The notes under the pieces were generated by a model. That model worked only from the letters and a program-made list of their open reading frames with translations. It searched no databases and was not told where the DNA came from. A DNA stretch of 64,000 nt from Bremerella sp. TYQ1 (GTDB lineage: Bacteria > Planctomycetota > Planctomycetia > Pirellulales > Pirellulaceae). The number at the start of each line of letters is the position of its first letter. Positions within the stretch are counted from its first letter, which is position 1. Location of the stretch: assembly GCF_020150455.1 (NCBI RefSeq), contig NZ_CP083740.1, positions 1,860,001-1,924,000 on the forward strand, given 5' to 3'. Positions 27,901 to 32,473 of this stretch are shown here, piece by piece. The translations under genes were made by a program, and so were the position numbers.

Positions 27901-28020
27901 ATGCCCCGAATCCCTATCGCTATTCTGCTTGCCATTCTCTCGTTGTGCGGAGTTGTCAATTCAGCATACGGCGCTGATCGTTCTCCGAACATCGTCCTCA
28001 TCTTCATCGACGATAAGTAG
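27901..28020 (+). pseudogene. Truncated sulfatase N-terminus
   Basis: From ATG 27901 the frame encodes a signal peptide (MPRIPIAILLAILSLCGVVN, then SAYGA) followed by RSPNIVLIFIDDK and a TAG stop. RPNIVLIFADD is the opening strand and first metal ligand region of sulfatases, which are very abundant in planctomycetes. The remaining ~400 residues, including the Cys-x-Pro-x-Arg active site, are absent, and the sequence after 28020 is unrelated. This is a broken gene and marks the junction between core and accessory DNA. Confidence 0.8.
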
Positions 28021-28233: not shown

Positions 28234-28372
28234 TTACCCAATGGCTTCGGGCAGTTGGGCACCGAGGATGAATGCCAATAACAGGAATAGGGTGCTTCTA
28301 GCAAAGGACGGTTCGTCCTTGGCGTGCAAAAACTCGTGCTCAAAGAGGATCGAATCTGCATCATCGCGCGGA

Positions 28373-28440
28373 CCTAATGCTCGTCGGGAAATCCTAGAAC
28401 GGATGGGAACAGACTGACGCATTAGCCCGATGAGCGTAAA
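28373..28440 (+). repeat. attC-like imperfect palindrome 1
   Basis: CTAATGCTCGTCGGG (28374-28388) pairs with CCCGATGAGCGTAA (28426-28439) around a ~37-nt centre. The outer arms start with CTAA and end with GCGTAA, near the R''/R' boxes of integron attC sites, but degenerate. The second repeat copy carries the same structure at the same spacing. A weak member of the set on its own. Confidence 0.45.
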
Positions 28441-28529
28441 TCAGGGGCCGCCTATCACGCACAGACAAACGTGACAATTGAGAAACCTACAGCTACAATT
28501 CGACTTGCGACAATTAACTGCCTGCTTGT

Positions 28530-28551
28530 TAGGCCGCACAATTGCGGCCTA
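28530..28551. repeat. Perfect 9-bp palindromic hairpin
   Basis: TAGGCCGCA and TGCGGCCTA are perfect inverted repeats separated by CAAT. It lies inside the ~30-bp segment that is present in repeat copy A and missing from copy B, directly after a GTTAGG motif. Could be a small mobile palindrome or a transcription-stop hairpin. Confidence 0.75.
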
Positions 28552-28608
28552 CAGGTGATTGGCAGAAGCTTCCTAAAATCTAGTTAGGCACCAAGCTGGC
28601 CCAACCTC

Positions 28609-28926
28609 ATGTCCGAATCAGATCGAGTCGTAGCTAGCCAGTTCTGTAAGGCCTTTCTCTGTCCACGGGACCGCGCGGCTGCAACCCATGAACTGGCGGC
28701 ACATGGTCAGAACGCGGTTCCTATCCTCCGTTCGATTCTAAACGGAGAGGCAAAAAATGAGTTCGGAGTCGCCTACCGTCGTTTGGGCATGCCAGTAGAT
28801 TGCTCGCTCGTCACTATTTGCATGCTTGGCAGAATCGCAAGCCCTCTTGAGGAGTTTGTGCGTGCGGAACTCAAGGCTGGTCACGCTTATGCAGAGGATG
28901 CTTTGCGTGCAATCATTGACGCTTGA
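28609..28926 (+). CDS. Cassette-like gene, 105-aa protein of unknown function
   Basis: ATG 28609 to TGA 28926. The product is mainly helical (AAATHELAAHGQNAVPILRS, and a C-terminal FVRAELKAGHAYAEDALRAI), with a HEAT-like alternation of hydrophobic residues. No family recognised. It is a single gene with a short 5' leader, followed at its stop codon by an attC-like palindrome, which is the arrangement of an integron gene cassette. Base composition is slightly lower in GC than the core. Confidence 0.6.
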   Translation: MSESDRVVASQFCKAFLCPRDRAAATHELAAHGQNAVPILRSILNGEAKNEFGVAYRRLGMPVDCSLVTICMLGRIASPLEEFVRAELKAGHAYAEDALRAIIDA

Positions 28927-28992
28927 TAATTTATTCAAACCGACCGCCCACTGACTACGCCAGCGGGCGGCGTCGTAACTCAAGCCTTGGGC
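28922..28992 (+). repeat. attC-like site 2
   Basis: Begins at the stop codon of the 105-aa gene. Inner arms CCGACCGCCC (28940-28949) and GGGCGGCGTCG (28965-28975) pair around a short loop, and the outer part reads TTATTCAAACCGAC ... GTAACTCAAGCCTTGGGC. This closely follows the layout of well-known ~60-bp attC sites (TTCAAGCCGAC...TTAACTCAAGCGTTAG). The outer R box (CCTTGGGC) is a degenerate GTTRRRY. Confidence 0.65.
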
Positions 28993-29016
28993 GAAAAAAC
29001 GAATAGGTGGAAAATA

Positions 29017-29589
29017 GTGAAAACACAGTATTACACAGCCACGAGTCTTGATGGATTCCTCGCGACCGAAGAAGATTCTCTTGATTGGCTTTTTCCTCTT
29101 GGAGACATTAATAGTTCTAGCTATCCAGGGTTCATATCCGAAGTTGGAGCCTTGGCTATGGGATCATCGACTTATGAATGGATGATACGTAATTCAGACC
29201 AGGTCGCTAAAGAGACAGGTGCTCCATGGCCTTACGACAAACCTGCTTGGGTGTTCTCAAGTCGTAAGCTACCGGTGATTGCCGGCGCAGATCTCCATTT
29301 TTCAAATGGAGATGTACGTCAAGCGCACGAAGAAATGAAGGTTGCCGCTAAAGATAAAAACATTTGGATCGTTGGCGGTGGTGACTTAGCAGGGCAGTTC
29401 TATGACGCAGGCTTGCTGGACGAACTAATTATTCAAGTTGGTTCTGCCACGCTTGCAAAAGGTAAGCCACTTTTTCCGCGCCGTGTGTTAAGCCCTACTC
29501 TTAGTCTAGTATCCGTTGTGCAAATGGGGGTAGGGATGGCGGAGCTACGATATGAAGTAAACAAAAATGGTAAGCATGAATCCTCCTAA
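29017..29589 (+). CDS. Dihydrofolate reductase/RibD C-terminal-like protein (cassette gene)
   Basis: GTG 29017 is chosen for its AGGTGG site (29005-29010) and because the family starts right before YYTATSLDGFLATEE; an in-frame TTG upstream is less likely. 190 residues. The Rossmann-like fold shows SLDGF near the start, AMGSSTYEWM and a NADPH-binding NIWIVGGGDLAGQFYDAGLL. Such proteins are NADPH-dependent reductases related to DHFR; substrate unknown, and trimethoprim resistance is not implied. It is flanked by attC-like sites, which fits carriage as a mobile cassette. Confidence 0.82.
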   Translation: MKTQYYTATSLDGFLATEEDSLDWLFPLGDINSSSYPGFISEVGALAMGSSTYEWMIRNSDQVAKETGAPWPYDKPAWVFSSRKLPVIAGADLHFSNGDVRQAHEEMKVAAKDKNIWIVGGGDLAGQFYDAGLLDELIIQVGSATLAKGKPLFPRRVLSPTLSLVSVVQMGVGMAELRYEVNKNGKHESS

Positions 29590-29636
29590 CAATGCGCTGC
29601 AGGCCGACGGCCAACTTTGAGCAAGGTGTTAGGCGG
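29584..29636 (+). repeat. attC-like site 3
   Basis: Starts at the stop of the DHFR-like gene with CCTAACAATGCGCTGCAG and ends in GTGTTAGGC (29627-29635), which contains a canonical R' box GTTAGGC. The opening CTAACAATGCGCTGCAGGC is the classic left half of many integron attC sites. The central stem is short and imperfect, so this may be a trimmed site. Confidence 0.6.
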
Positions 29637-29827
29637 TAAGATAATATTGGGTTAGCAACGGCGACTGCGGGTGGTCGTAAGGCACGCCTAGAGATCCGCA
29701 GCTGAGGTCACCGTCGAAGACGCTGCTCGCATCCATGGCAGCGGAGCCTCATTCCTGGGGAAATCACGCTTCCTGCCAGCGGCCTAACTCATGCGTTCTT
29801 GCGAGGTTCTTGGCTAATCGTTGTGAG

Positions 29828-29856
29828 GCCCGCCTTTCAAAATGCGTAAGGAGGGC
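29828..29856 (+). repeat. Unoccupied stem-loop (intron target-like)
   Basis: GCCCGCCTT (29828-29836) pairs with AAGGAGGGC (29848-29856), with one mismatch, around an 11-nt loop. The same stem-loop at 31627-31655 is followed immediately by the group II intron-like sequence, whereas here it is followed by ACATTGGTCAC. Confidence 0.7.
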
Positions 29857-29953
29857 GTGACATTGGTCACTTGTTATGGCAGAACATGACGGTTCGACAT
29901 GTGTGAGCAAGAACTCGTGGTCGAAGAGGATTGAATCTGAATCATCGCGTGAG

Positions 29954-30022
29954 TCTAATGCTCATCGGGTAATCTTGGAACCGACGTCAACGAACGGGCG
30001 ATTCGTCCCGACGAGCGTTAGT
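29954..30022 (+). repeat. attC-like site 4
   Basis: CTAATGCTCATCGGG (29955-29969) pairs with CCCGACGAGCGTTAG (30007-30021) along the full 15 bp (allowing G-T pairs), with a 37-nt centre. The ends CTAA...GCGTTAG fit the R''/R' boxes of attC. It is part of repeat copy B and precedes the HEPN gene. Confidence 0.55.
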
Positions 30023-30165
30023 CAGGGGCCGCCTATCACGCACAAAAAGATGTGACAGTTGAGCAACCTACAGCTACAATCCGACTTACGAAAATCAACT
30101 GCCTGCGCGTTGGGCAGAAACTTCCCATAAACAAGTTAGCGGACAGCAAAAATTTCAACTGAGCA

Positions 30166-31074
30166 ATGAACCCTGATCCCGACGTCGGTAACTCGAATTG
30201 GCACATCTTAGTTGCGGGCTTCCCCTGCGTTCCAAACGCCGTAACTTTGGCATCTGGCGTTACATTACAACCGCTAAGCGAACCACTTTCGGTGTTTGAC
30301 CTTGCTGCTGCTGGTGCCGTTGGTTTCCGCAACTGGGCATTACTCGAACCCGTTGCACTCGCCTGTACCTGCGAAATCGCAACTTCTCAATTTCAATCGT
30401 CTCGTCCTGGCTACGACACTCTCAATCGTGCATGGCTTGCCTCGTCGCTACTCGTCCTTCGAGGATTTACAAAGCATCTGTCCCTCGCATGCTCCAACTA
30501 TTCGTGGAATCAGATTGCGGGACATCAACGACGAACCGCAAATACTGCCAATGGCAAGCTCCCACGATTCGTGGGCAACGTTTTGGACTTTCATCTAAAC
30601 ACCGTCGTGAACAGTGATGCTCGGACTGACCCTATTTCACCCGCCGACATCCAATGGATATCTAGCCGGTTCGATACGTTCAATAACATGGCGGCCAACA
30701 GCGACTCATTCCGTTTTGCCCTTGAATCAAGCTTTGACTGGCGATTCACGAAGGATGGGCGATCTGCAATTGCACGACTTTGGAGTGGCATCGAGGCGAT
30801 ATTTGGAATTAGCTCCGAATTGGTTTACCGCATATCTTTACTTTCAGCATCTTTGTTAGCGCCAAGAGGTGTGCAACGCAGAGAGAAGTTCCAAGAAGTT
30901 AGAAACTTGTATGGTTTGAGAAGCAAAGCGGTTCATGGATCGAAGCTGTCCGCCGACAAAATGGCAGAGGCTGTAAATGGTTCATTCCGTTTGTTGGCTG
31001 ATTTATTAATGTTGACGATCGAACGGGGGCATGCGCTCACGCAAGCAGATTTTGACAAGGCCGTTTTTGACTGA
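30166..31074 (+). CDS. ApeA-like HEPN-domain protein (cassette gene)
   Basis: 302 residues from ATG 30166. The C-terminal ~120 residues match the HEPN pattern: ARLWSGIEAIFGISSELVYR and VRNLYGLRSKAVHGSKL, the latter carrying an R-x4-H motif (RSKAVH) as in HEPN ribonucleases. The N-terminal ~170 residues are not recognised. HEPN proteins of the ApeA type are anti-phage RNases, so a defence role is a reasonable inference; nuclease activity is not shown. An attC-like site follows 12 bp after the stop. Confidence 0.7.
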   Translation: MNPDPDVGNSNWHILVAGFPCVPNAVTLASGVTLQPLSEPLSVFDLAAAGAVGFRNWALLEPVALACTCEIATSQFQSSRPGYDTLNRAWLASSLLVLRGFTKHLSLACSNYSWNQIAGHQRRTANTANGKLPRFVGNVLDFHLNTVVNSDARTDPISPADIQWISSRFDTFNNMAANSDSFRFALESSFDWRFTKDGRSAIARLWSGIEAIFGISSELVYRISLLSASLLAPRGVQRREKFQEVRNLYGLRSKAVHGSKLSADKMAEAVNGSFRLLADLLMLTIERGHALTQADFDKAVFD

Positions 31075-31085
31075 CAGAAAAAGCC

Positions 31086-31175
31086 CACTAACGACCGCAT
31101 GCACTGGAGCCGCCGATCCGGGCAAAATCACACGGAGCACCAACCGCGGCGGCCCGGTGATGCTGGACGTTAAGG
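31086..31175 (+). repeat. attC site 5 (best of the set)
   Basis: ACTAACGACCGCATGCACTG at the left and GGTGATGCTGGACGTTAAG at the right. Reverse-complementing the right half gives TTAACGTCCAGCATCACC, which pairs with the left half through AACG, GCAT, CAC, GG and GCCGCCG blocks, leaving unpaired bases (for example the G of GCATGCAC). Unpaired extrahelical bases are the hallmark of folded attC sites. The site starts 12 bp after the HEPN gene stop. Confidence 0.75.
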
Positions 31176-31248
31176 AATCTTAGAGATCGTCGCGATACCT
31201 CGGGCATCAGCGTTTCTACTTCCGCCAATTGGTCCGCTGGCCTCATGT

Positions 31249-31479
31249 GTGGATTTCTGGTCGGATCACGGGCTCCAGTCGGTCTTCCAAGACATTCCGA
31301 TTGCTCTGGTTGTTGCGATACCGATGTTAGCTCTTCCTTCTCTCTTCTTCGGGATTGGCTTGACGGCAGCCGACTACTACAAGCCTGATTTTCGCTGGCT
31401 TTGGACATCATTCCTGATCACTCTGGCAGCAATCAATGTGTTTCTGGGCCTTTGGCTAGGAGCGCAGATGGACTTCTAA
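31249..31479 (+). CDS. Small two-pass membrane protein (cassette gene)
   Basis: 76 residues from GTG 31249. Two hydrophobic helices (PIALVVAIPMLALPSLFFGI and WTSFLITLAAINVFLGLWLG) separated by a short charged loop (ADYYKPDF). No family recognised. It lies between attC-like sites 5 and 6, so it is probably another cassette. Small membrane proteins are common cassette cargo. Confidence 0.6.
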   Translation: MDFWSDHGLQSVFQDIPIALVVAIPMLALPSLFFGIGLTAADYYKPDFRWLWTSFLITLAAINVFLGLWLGAQMDF

Positions 31480-31485
31480 GTTCGG

Positions 31486-31594
31486 CCCCTAACCAACGGC
31501 TGCAGTCGACTAGCGACGCCCGTGATTGAATGAACCCATCGACCCGTCCGTCTCTTCCCGTAGGCGGCTCGCAACTGTTTGGGGAGACGTTATC
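31486..31594 (+). repeat. attC-like site 6
   Basis: Begins CCCTAACCAACGGCTGCAG 7 bp after the membrane-protein stop and ends GGGGAGACGTTATCG. The inner arms CAGTCGACTAGCGACGCC and GGCGGCTCGCAACTG are partly complementary around a ~45-nt centre. About 108 bp, longer than the others but within the attC range. Its right edge runs into the stem-loop that precedes the intron fragment. Confidence 0.6.
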
Positions 31595-31626
31595 GTCTTG
31601 CCAAGGAATTGGCGGATCGTAGTGAG

Positions 31627-31655
31627 GCCCGCCTTTCAAAATGCACAAGGAGGGC
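31627..31655 (+). repeat. Stem-loop bordering the intron (copy C)
   Basis: GCCCGCCTT and AAGGAGGGC form a 9-bp stem with one mismatch, as in copy B (29828-29856). The surrounding ~65 bp (31590-31658) also match copy B. The group II-like sequence follows directly. Confidence 0.7.
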
Positions 31656-32470
31656 GTGTTTGTGCCAAGAAGCTTGGGAAAGGGGGAAGAGATGTAGGAA
31701 ACAACTTGGAAACCTTTCCGTGGAATCTTGCGGGTGGGAAGCCCGTCCGGTAGAGCCTGACCAGCAGCCGGAAGCGAGTCTTGTGTCGTACGTGGGTAAC
31801 CCGTCCGGCAAAGCGTAGACAGCGAGTCCGAAAGCCATGCTATTGAAAGTCGAAAGTCCAATGGTGGGAGCCTTTGCGTTACACGTACCAAGGGCCGAGT
31901 TGTGACATCTTATCGGTCTGATGTCGACAATCCCTCCGGCGTCGAGGAACATAGGCAAACGGATCATTGAGATTCCCCAGGAACTTGGGAGATCCTGATG
32001 TCTCCTCAATAAGATCCCGGCCGGAGAACCGGTTAACAACTCCAGGCCATGATGGTGTACTCGTCCATCAGGGAGCGAACAGAACGAGTGAAAGTTGAGG
32101 TATCGCCAAACGAAGGCAACGAAGTGCGGCGAGATGGATGTCAGGAAGTCATAGCGTCTTGATAGTACCGATGAAACTGGAGAACAAACCCGACTGGATC
32201 CAGTGGAAGGAAGCGAGACGTCGAATTACGAACCGTGACTGAGAAACACGACGAATGCCTCGAAATTCGATAAACGTGTCCACGAAACAGGAACGGATTG
32301 CAGCGTTGGCGAAACAATCGCCGGAAATGGCATTCACTTCGCTGGCCTACCTGATGGACTTGGATTGGTTGAAAGAAGCGTATCGACGCACACGCAAGGA
32401 TGGCGCGGTTGGTGTGGACGGAATGACAGCTGCGGAATACGAACAAGATCTGGAGGTCAACCTCCAGAGC
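31656..32470 (+). mobile_element. Group II intron, 5' part (truncated)
   Basis: Starts with GTGTTTGTGCCAAGAAGCTT, close to the GUG-type 5' end of group II introns; the exact first base is uncertain by ~3 bp because the GTG is also present in the empty copy. About 600 nt of non-coding, GC-rich structured-looking sequence precedes an intron-encoded reverse transcriptase start, the normal layout. The 3' part, most of the RT, and domains V-VI are missing because an IS3-like end begins at 32471. Position behind a stem-loop and among attC sites suggests group IIC. Confidence 0.7.
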
Positions 32471-32473
32471 TGA
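32255..32473 (+). pseudogene. Group II intron reverse transcriptase, N-terminal fragment
   Basis: 72 codons from ATG 32255. MAFTSLAYLMDLDWLKEAYR and TRKDGAVGVDGMTAAEYEQD are the conserved start of group II intron RT/maturases (finger domain). The frame stops at TGA 32471-32473, which lies in the IS3-type terminal sequence, so the RT was cut off by insertion or rearrangement. Catalytic YADD and maturase parts are absent. Confidence 0.85.

Follow-up and report, generated by a model that had tools for sequence, protein, structure and literature searches.

Two tandem integron units without intI, each headed by an attI-like platform, in the chromosome of Bremerella sp. TYQ1

We analysed a 64,000-nt stretch (hereafter the window) of the single-contig, 6.66-Mb chromosome of the planctomycete Bremerella sp. 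TYQ1 (NZ_CP083740.1, positions 1,860,001 to 1,924,000), and compared it with 199 genomes of the family, using a genus set of nine genomes that includes its own (G000). Comparison of the sequences gives good support for reading the region at 28.3–31.7 kb as two tandem integron units without the integrase gene intI, each made up of a left end, an attI-like platform with a predicted promoter, cassettes and a 66-nt right end; their activity as platforms is predicted. Very likely both derive from integrons whose intI was read in the direction of attI. They would have lost intI and retained attI, its cassette promoter (Pc), between one and three cassettes, and the conserved right end. The parts follow the same order in both units, each unit is headed by an attI, no intI scores above the curated cut-off in the genome, and the arrangement recurs at many loci. 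Our overall verdict is of a dispersed and mostly integrase-free attI/Pc platform, at which the docking of cassettes is predicted.

attI-like platforms at the head of two tandem units

The called genes at 28.3–31.7 kb all lie on the + strand and alternate with palindromes, so that the alternation of short same-strand genes and palindromes described in an original prediction, made from the sequence alone, is real. Two direct repeats frame these genes. The first (D1, 235 nt) starts at 28300 and again at 29881, with 78% identity between the copies, and the second (D2, 63 nt) starts at 29797 and 31596, with 84% identity. The elements run in the order D1, two genes, D2, D1, two genes, D2, and therefore form two units in tandem (Table 1).

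Relatives also carry the terminal 151 nt of D1. A model of this element (R3) was built from 13 copies, nine of them without intI and four with an intI stub upstream, with no locus carrying a full-length intI in the training set. It gave 92 matches in 37 of the 199 family genomes, with as many as 13 in one single-contig chromosome (G019), and it recognizes both window platforms, the first of which was a training copy and the second of which was not. In six relatives, all outside the training set (G107, G040, G023, G188, G021 and G084), the match lies on the strand of a full-length intI and begins 18–24 nt beyond it, a placement confirmed at the sequence level in four of the six. The element ends in AAGTTA, and cassettes begin at its GTT. 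Because it abuts full-length intI in six untrained relatives and cassettes start at its terminal GTT, we identify the 151-nt element, by its position, as the attI of the integron type whose intI reads toward attI. A reading of the approx. 150-nt repeat as a gene-less promoter cassette was rejected, since it abuts intI in relatives.

The original prediction had taken the region for a cluster of attC sites lacking an integrase (CALIN), which it resembles in having cassettes and attC without intI, and from which it differs by the attI and promoter at the head of each unit and by the conserved right end. That description was thus right about the cassettes without an integrase (site 5 below; no intI above cut-off) and too narrow in overlooking two retained platforms and their right ends. 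A plain CALIN would have been formed by off-target cassette insertion by an IntI elsewhere, with the shared flanking sequences due to chance or host repeats. Such an origin is listed, beside intI loss and rearrangement, in the cited passages of PMC8618304; it would suit a genome without intI above the cut-off, and part of the attI calls are weak, with 12 of the 92 R3 matches scoring below 35 bits. We nevertheless consider it highly improbable, as off-target insertion would leave no attI, whereas both units are headed by one (159.6 and 103.3 bits), an element found right beside intI in six relatives. The retention of attI, promoter and right end therefore points to intI loss, one of the three origins in that source.

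attC sites, intI and the predicted promoter

Candidate attC sites were gathered with a purpose-made scanner, and a covariance model (R1) was built from 27 of the 34 candidates, all at relatives' loci with full-length intI and none from the TYQ1 genome. The earlier claim had been that six attC-like palindromes lie in one orientation, with sites 2, 3 and 5 as the best of them. Site 5 is a true attC: it is the sole R1 match in the window (50.5 bits; E 1.1e-11 for the window and 1.1e-9 for the complete 6.66-Mb genome) and the only site with the R and L boxes and conserved fold of the planctomycete type. Models for planctomycete attC were used in PMC8352920, so that, going by the cited part of that paper, such sites are already known. 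With filters switched off and the search confined to 27.8–32.6 kb, the short site 3 reached 10.3 bits (E 0.17), with a TCCTAAC/GTTAGGC pair that matches well, and sites 1, 2, 4 and 6 gave nothing above noise. The z-scores of the bottom-strand folds against shuffles (Table 1) show that only sites 2 and 5 clearly fold better than shuffled sequence. In site 2 both R boxes are lost, yet TTCAAnCCGAC and a TAA.TCAAG-like part occur there as they do in a 60-nt attC of a relative's array (L090). This site and site 6 look decayed, and site 6 would be an attC by position only. A blastn search against plasmids returned 10 records for site 2 and nine for site 3, all with E 0.7 or worse and none with an annotated attC.

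Sites 1 and 4 were rejected as attC, as both adjoin attI inside the 235-nt direct repeat that holds the platform. They seem to keep the last codons of intI: CCCGATGAGCG, beside the window attI, matches the last intI codons of the G019 copies, and the left arm of both sites is presumably an inverted copy. Two or more significant attC matches in one orientation had been expected of a CALIN; by R1 the window holds one significant attC (site 5) and one weak one (site 3).

The lack of an integrase, first noted for the window, extends to the whole genome, in which none of the 12 TIGR02249 matches exceeds the curated cut-off. The best two are XerD and XerC and were rejected as IntI; two weaker ones lie near 147.2 and 3433.2 kb. 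The candidate at L015, which by eye resembles another tyrosine recombinase, was likewise rejected. Elsewhere on the chromosome lie further attC matches at 68.3, 29.9 and 27.1 bits and two C-terminal intI remnants (L011 and L012). R1 matches five places in the genome, three of them above 25 bits (68.3, 50.5 and 27.1), and a direct R1 search of L011 added the match at 29.9 bits. The 27.1-bit candidate lies at G000:C1:947952-948042 +. On the minus strand of L011 (10940-9060; G000:C1 ~2.85 Mb) we noticed a second integron remnant of this genome, with an intI C-terminus, another attI type, two attC and a right end; its flanking genes are phage-like by eye and common to L083. The intI C-terminal remnant at L012 (G000:C1 ~2.823 Mb) has a broken frame, and the DNA ahead of it is similar to that at L011.

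For 61 attI (60 of the 92 R3 sites plus one in G201), as much as 1.4 kb of the preceding sequence was examined by tblastn with five IntI proteins. A full intI was found at four, a C-terminal stub at 23 and none at 34, both window attI being among the last. At loci with a stub the left border varies and the attI side is constant. The loss of intI would have come by deletion starting at its 5′ end, so that the part for docking and expression outlived the recombinase. Of the same 61 attI, 33 are followed within 6.5 kb by an attC match of at least 25 bits. Among the attC matches of at least 25 bits at attI loci, 54 of 55 lie downstream on the attI strand and none on the opposite strand; three of these rows are training-set sites entered by hand and given a nominal score, and the count without them is 51 of 52. 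This count leaves out five matches below 25 bits, all matches of L213, which covers the locus of L091, and every locus at which R3 has no site.

The best sigma-70-like pair sits at one attI offset in 44 of the 61 copies, and on average 8.84 of its 12 positions match. Mononucleotide shuffles average 6.33, and the highest mean among 100 of them is 6.64. Three paired forms occur, GTGACA/TACAAT, TTGAAA/TATGAA and TTGACA/TATCAT, and both window units carry the first of these with a 17-nt spacer. This Pc inside attI would drive the cassette genes on the same strand, and the capture of new cassettes would require an IntI acting in trans.

Several results weigh against our preferred reading of the units as integrons that lost intI. 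The array may be dead, because only one window attC passes R1 and the other sites are weak or decayed; no attC of at least 25 bits lies at 28 of the 61 attI, and the second window attI carries a 29-nt deletion. Two of the 34 attI scored as having no intI had less than 400 nt of upstream sequence to inspect, and at some of the 34 a few codons resembling intI can be made out by eye. Owing to the kinship of the attI copies, the 61 promoters are not independent, and the shuffles ignore that relatedness; the conservation of the promoter is therefore support and not proof. Finally, the hairpin of the right end has no T run, which makes a terminator role at most putative.

Right end and dispersal among relatives

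The right end was modelled from 19 copies, both window copies included (R2). At 55 bits or more, R2 matches 19 places, which are the training copies, in eight of the 199 family genomes, i.e. seven of the nine genus genomes and, with one copy, G018. Across the 199 genomes no strong right end was found beyond these, and seven other matches scored 21.9–27 bits; the right end is therefore nearly confined to this genus. It starts no more than 8 nt from the end of an R1 attC match in 12 of the 19 copies, with no R1 match at the start of the remaining seven, both window copies included. From these positions the right end appears to follow the last attC directly.

Such conserved left and right ends could be those of a non-autonomous mobile element, moved as a unit from left to right end by a recombinase in trans, with the cassettes incidental. 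We regard this as possible though doubtful. The spread of the right end over 19 places in seven of nine genus genomes (the training copies again) would fit it, as would the joining of the right end straight to the left end in tandem in the window, L068 and L071. One insertion site, which also speaks for our main reading, contains a unit in two of the nine genus genomes (G043, with full intI, and G149, with a stub) and nothing in the remaining seven, TYQ1 included; we take its flanking genes, from their reading frames, to be agmatine deiminase-like and CsaA-like. However, the intergenic DNA at this sole occupied/empty site does not align, which leaves the exact ends of the element unreadable, and flank comparisons at L072 and L073 gave no usable empty site. 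Neither a target duplication, at this one poorly alignable site, nor a terminal inverted repeat was found, GACGGTTCGWCC as a genome-wide target is not enriched (8 against 6 in the control), and attI copies outside the genus lack the right end. Some intI deletion junctions are common to different loci (L011/L077; L069/L075; L068/L071/L078), and this recurrence suggests copying of units after the deletion of intI; these junctions lie in short repeats and may have recurred independently.

If the units were instead old vertical remnants, several integrons would be decaying in place with no recent movement. Decay of sites 2, 3 and 6, the 22% difference between the two window units and intI stubs of many lengths are all in keeping with this, which we nonetheless think unlikely in view of G019. 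In that 9.57-Mb single contig with its 13 R3 matches, three attI copies (2.24, 3.28 and 6.37 Mb) share 95–97% identity. Their homology runs from a point within intI to the GTT of attI, and beyond it they match only in cassette-like repeats within the approx. 2.5 kb upstream and 6.5 kb downstream that were compared. A GTT-bounded repeat of approx. 330 nt (G019 loci L223–L251) is present in four platforms (b, c, d and e), its place in the array differing among them, with 97–100% identity in the closest pairs and about 80% in others. We also saw this repeat in tandem in L231. The nearest neighbour of an attI was in the same genome in 16 cases, against a mean of 3.1 and a maximum of 11 under 2000 label shuffles (17 of 48 in another version of the matrix).

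A full-length intI does occur in G019, at 2869036 and 31 kb from the nearest attI copy, so a source of the enzyme in trans is present there and not in TYQ1, which has none above the cut-off. The 13 attI, the one distant full intI and the approx. 330-nt repeat in four platforms bear on a bolder and, in our judgement, rather improbable proposal of a distributed integron, in which a chromosome would have many integrase-free attI/Pc docks, and an IntI from elsewhere, or one transferred, would load cassettes into them and shuffle cassettes among them. Were multicopy attI sites still functional in trans, an integron could extend over more than a single locus, with one integrase serving many promoter-bearing docks.

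Known systems, cassette genes and surroundings

Treponema has been described with an intI that reads toward attI, and this intI falls in one clade with the intI of Blastopirellula marina (PMC3607928, in the part cited). Our relatives resemble this type, as intI, attI and cassettes lie on one strand in L066 (G043), G107 and others; they differ in number, with one attI per integron in the cited part of that account and up to 13 per genome here, mostly without an adjoining full-length intI. Class 2 integrons, as described in the relevant passage of PMC8876359 (truncated intI2*, Pc in attI2), are similar in their defective integrase and retained attI and Pc, whereas here intI is gone or reduced to a C-terminal stub and the platform is chromosomal, multicopy and tandem. 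A limited search of the open-access literature returned, in the passages it covered, no report of multicopy attI without intI. Recognition of the attI of this integron type, which generic attC searches do not target, allows the origin of a CALIN to be decided case by case, as attI together with an intI stub means intI loss. The 151-nt model R3 offers a handle for a census.

Table 1. Features of the two tandem units and their right-hand surroundings; fold z, bottom-strand fold against shuffles
Feature	Position	Strand	Evidence and remarks
Left end, unit 1 (site 1)	28307..28437	+	GACGGTTCGTCC, conserved left-end sequence, inverted repeat with right arm CCCGATGAGCG; fold z -1.0
attI-like platform 1	28438..28588	+	R3 159.6 bits (training-set copy); cassette boundary at terminal GTT
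Predicted promoter Pc, unit 1	28471..28499	+	GTGACA-17-TACAAT
Cassette gene 1, 105 aa	28609..28926	+	Reading frame; no family match
Site 2, attC-like hairpin, R boxes lost	28920..28996	+	Fold z -2.8; resembles L090 attC; no R1 match
Cassette gene 2, RibD_C/DHFR-like reductase	29017..29589	+	PF01872, E 5.6e-10; start codon presumed
Site 3, short attC-like site	29584..29634	+	R1 10.3 bits, E 0.17, filters off; R boxes pair; fold z -1.3
Gene-free stretch ahead of right end	29635..29796	+	Reading-frame list; probably a decayed cassette
Right end, unit 1	29797..29862	+	R2 88.6 bits (training-set copy); hairpin GCCCGCCTT..AAGGAGGGC; 19-copy alignment
Left end, unit 2, inverted repeat (site 4)	29888..30018	+	D1 repeat; fold z -1.7
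attI-like platform 2, 29-nt internal deletion	30019..30140	+	R3 103.3 bits; outside training set
Predicted promoter Pc, unit 2	30052..30080	+	GTGACA-17-TACAAT
Cassette gene 3, 302 aa	30166..31074	+	RxxxxH motif by eye; some homologues named Apea-like HEPN
Site 5, attC of planctomycete type	31086..31175	+	R1 50.5 bits; fold z -2.4
Cassette gene 4, 76 aa, membrane-like by eye	31249..31479	+	No family match
Site 6, candidate attC by position only	31482..31604	+	No R1 match; fold z -1.05
Right end, unit 2	31596..31661	+	R2 84.2 bits (training-set copy)
Group II intron remnant	31737..31951	+	RF02005, 94.6 bits
Intron reverse transcriptase, 72-aa N-terminal fragment	32255..32473	+	TIGR04416, 14.9 bits, E 0.01, far under its cut-off

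The cargo of the window units is small. The predicted DHFR/RibD-like reductase was borne out by the PF01872 match of cassette gene 2. For cassette gene 3, proposed as an ApeA-like HEPN protein, neither Pfam nor PADLOC gave a match, and the proposal finds some backing in its 572 homologues, as three among the 120 listed bear the source name ‘Apea-like HEPN’; named homologues among those listed, from Rosistilla ulvae and Novipirellula, fit the planctomycete assignment of the original prediction. No relative of this 302-aa protein was found on viral contigs. The products of cassette genes 1 and 4 have no match in Pfam, NCBIfam or PADLOC. Cassette gene 1 has 16 homologues, with relatives in two Rhodanobacter genomes, and the purpose-made scanner found no attC behind the Rhodanobacter relative.

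Group II introns in integrons and CALINs are already known (PMC7923331, as far as cited), and the intron remnant here is alike in lying beside a cassette array, after a hairpin. Introns of class IIC-attC, however, are usually inserted into the bottom strand of an attC and so face the opposite way from the cassettes, whereas this remnant lies on the cassette strand, directly after the right end of unit 2. By DNA search it is the sole copy in its genome.

In the G043 integron (L066, 6300-5500 minus), a transposase-like stretch appears by eye to break a cassette gene. Ahead of the window units, at 27903..28019 (+), lies a 39-codon open frame which we take to resemble the start of a sulfatase gene; it stops just before unit 1 and was perhaps cut by the insertion.

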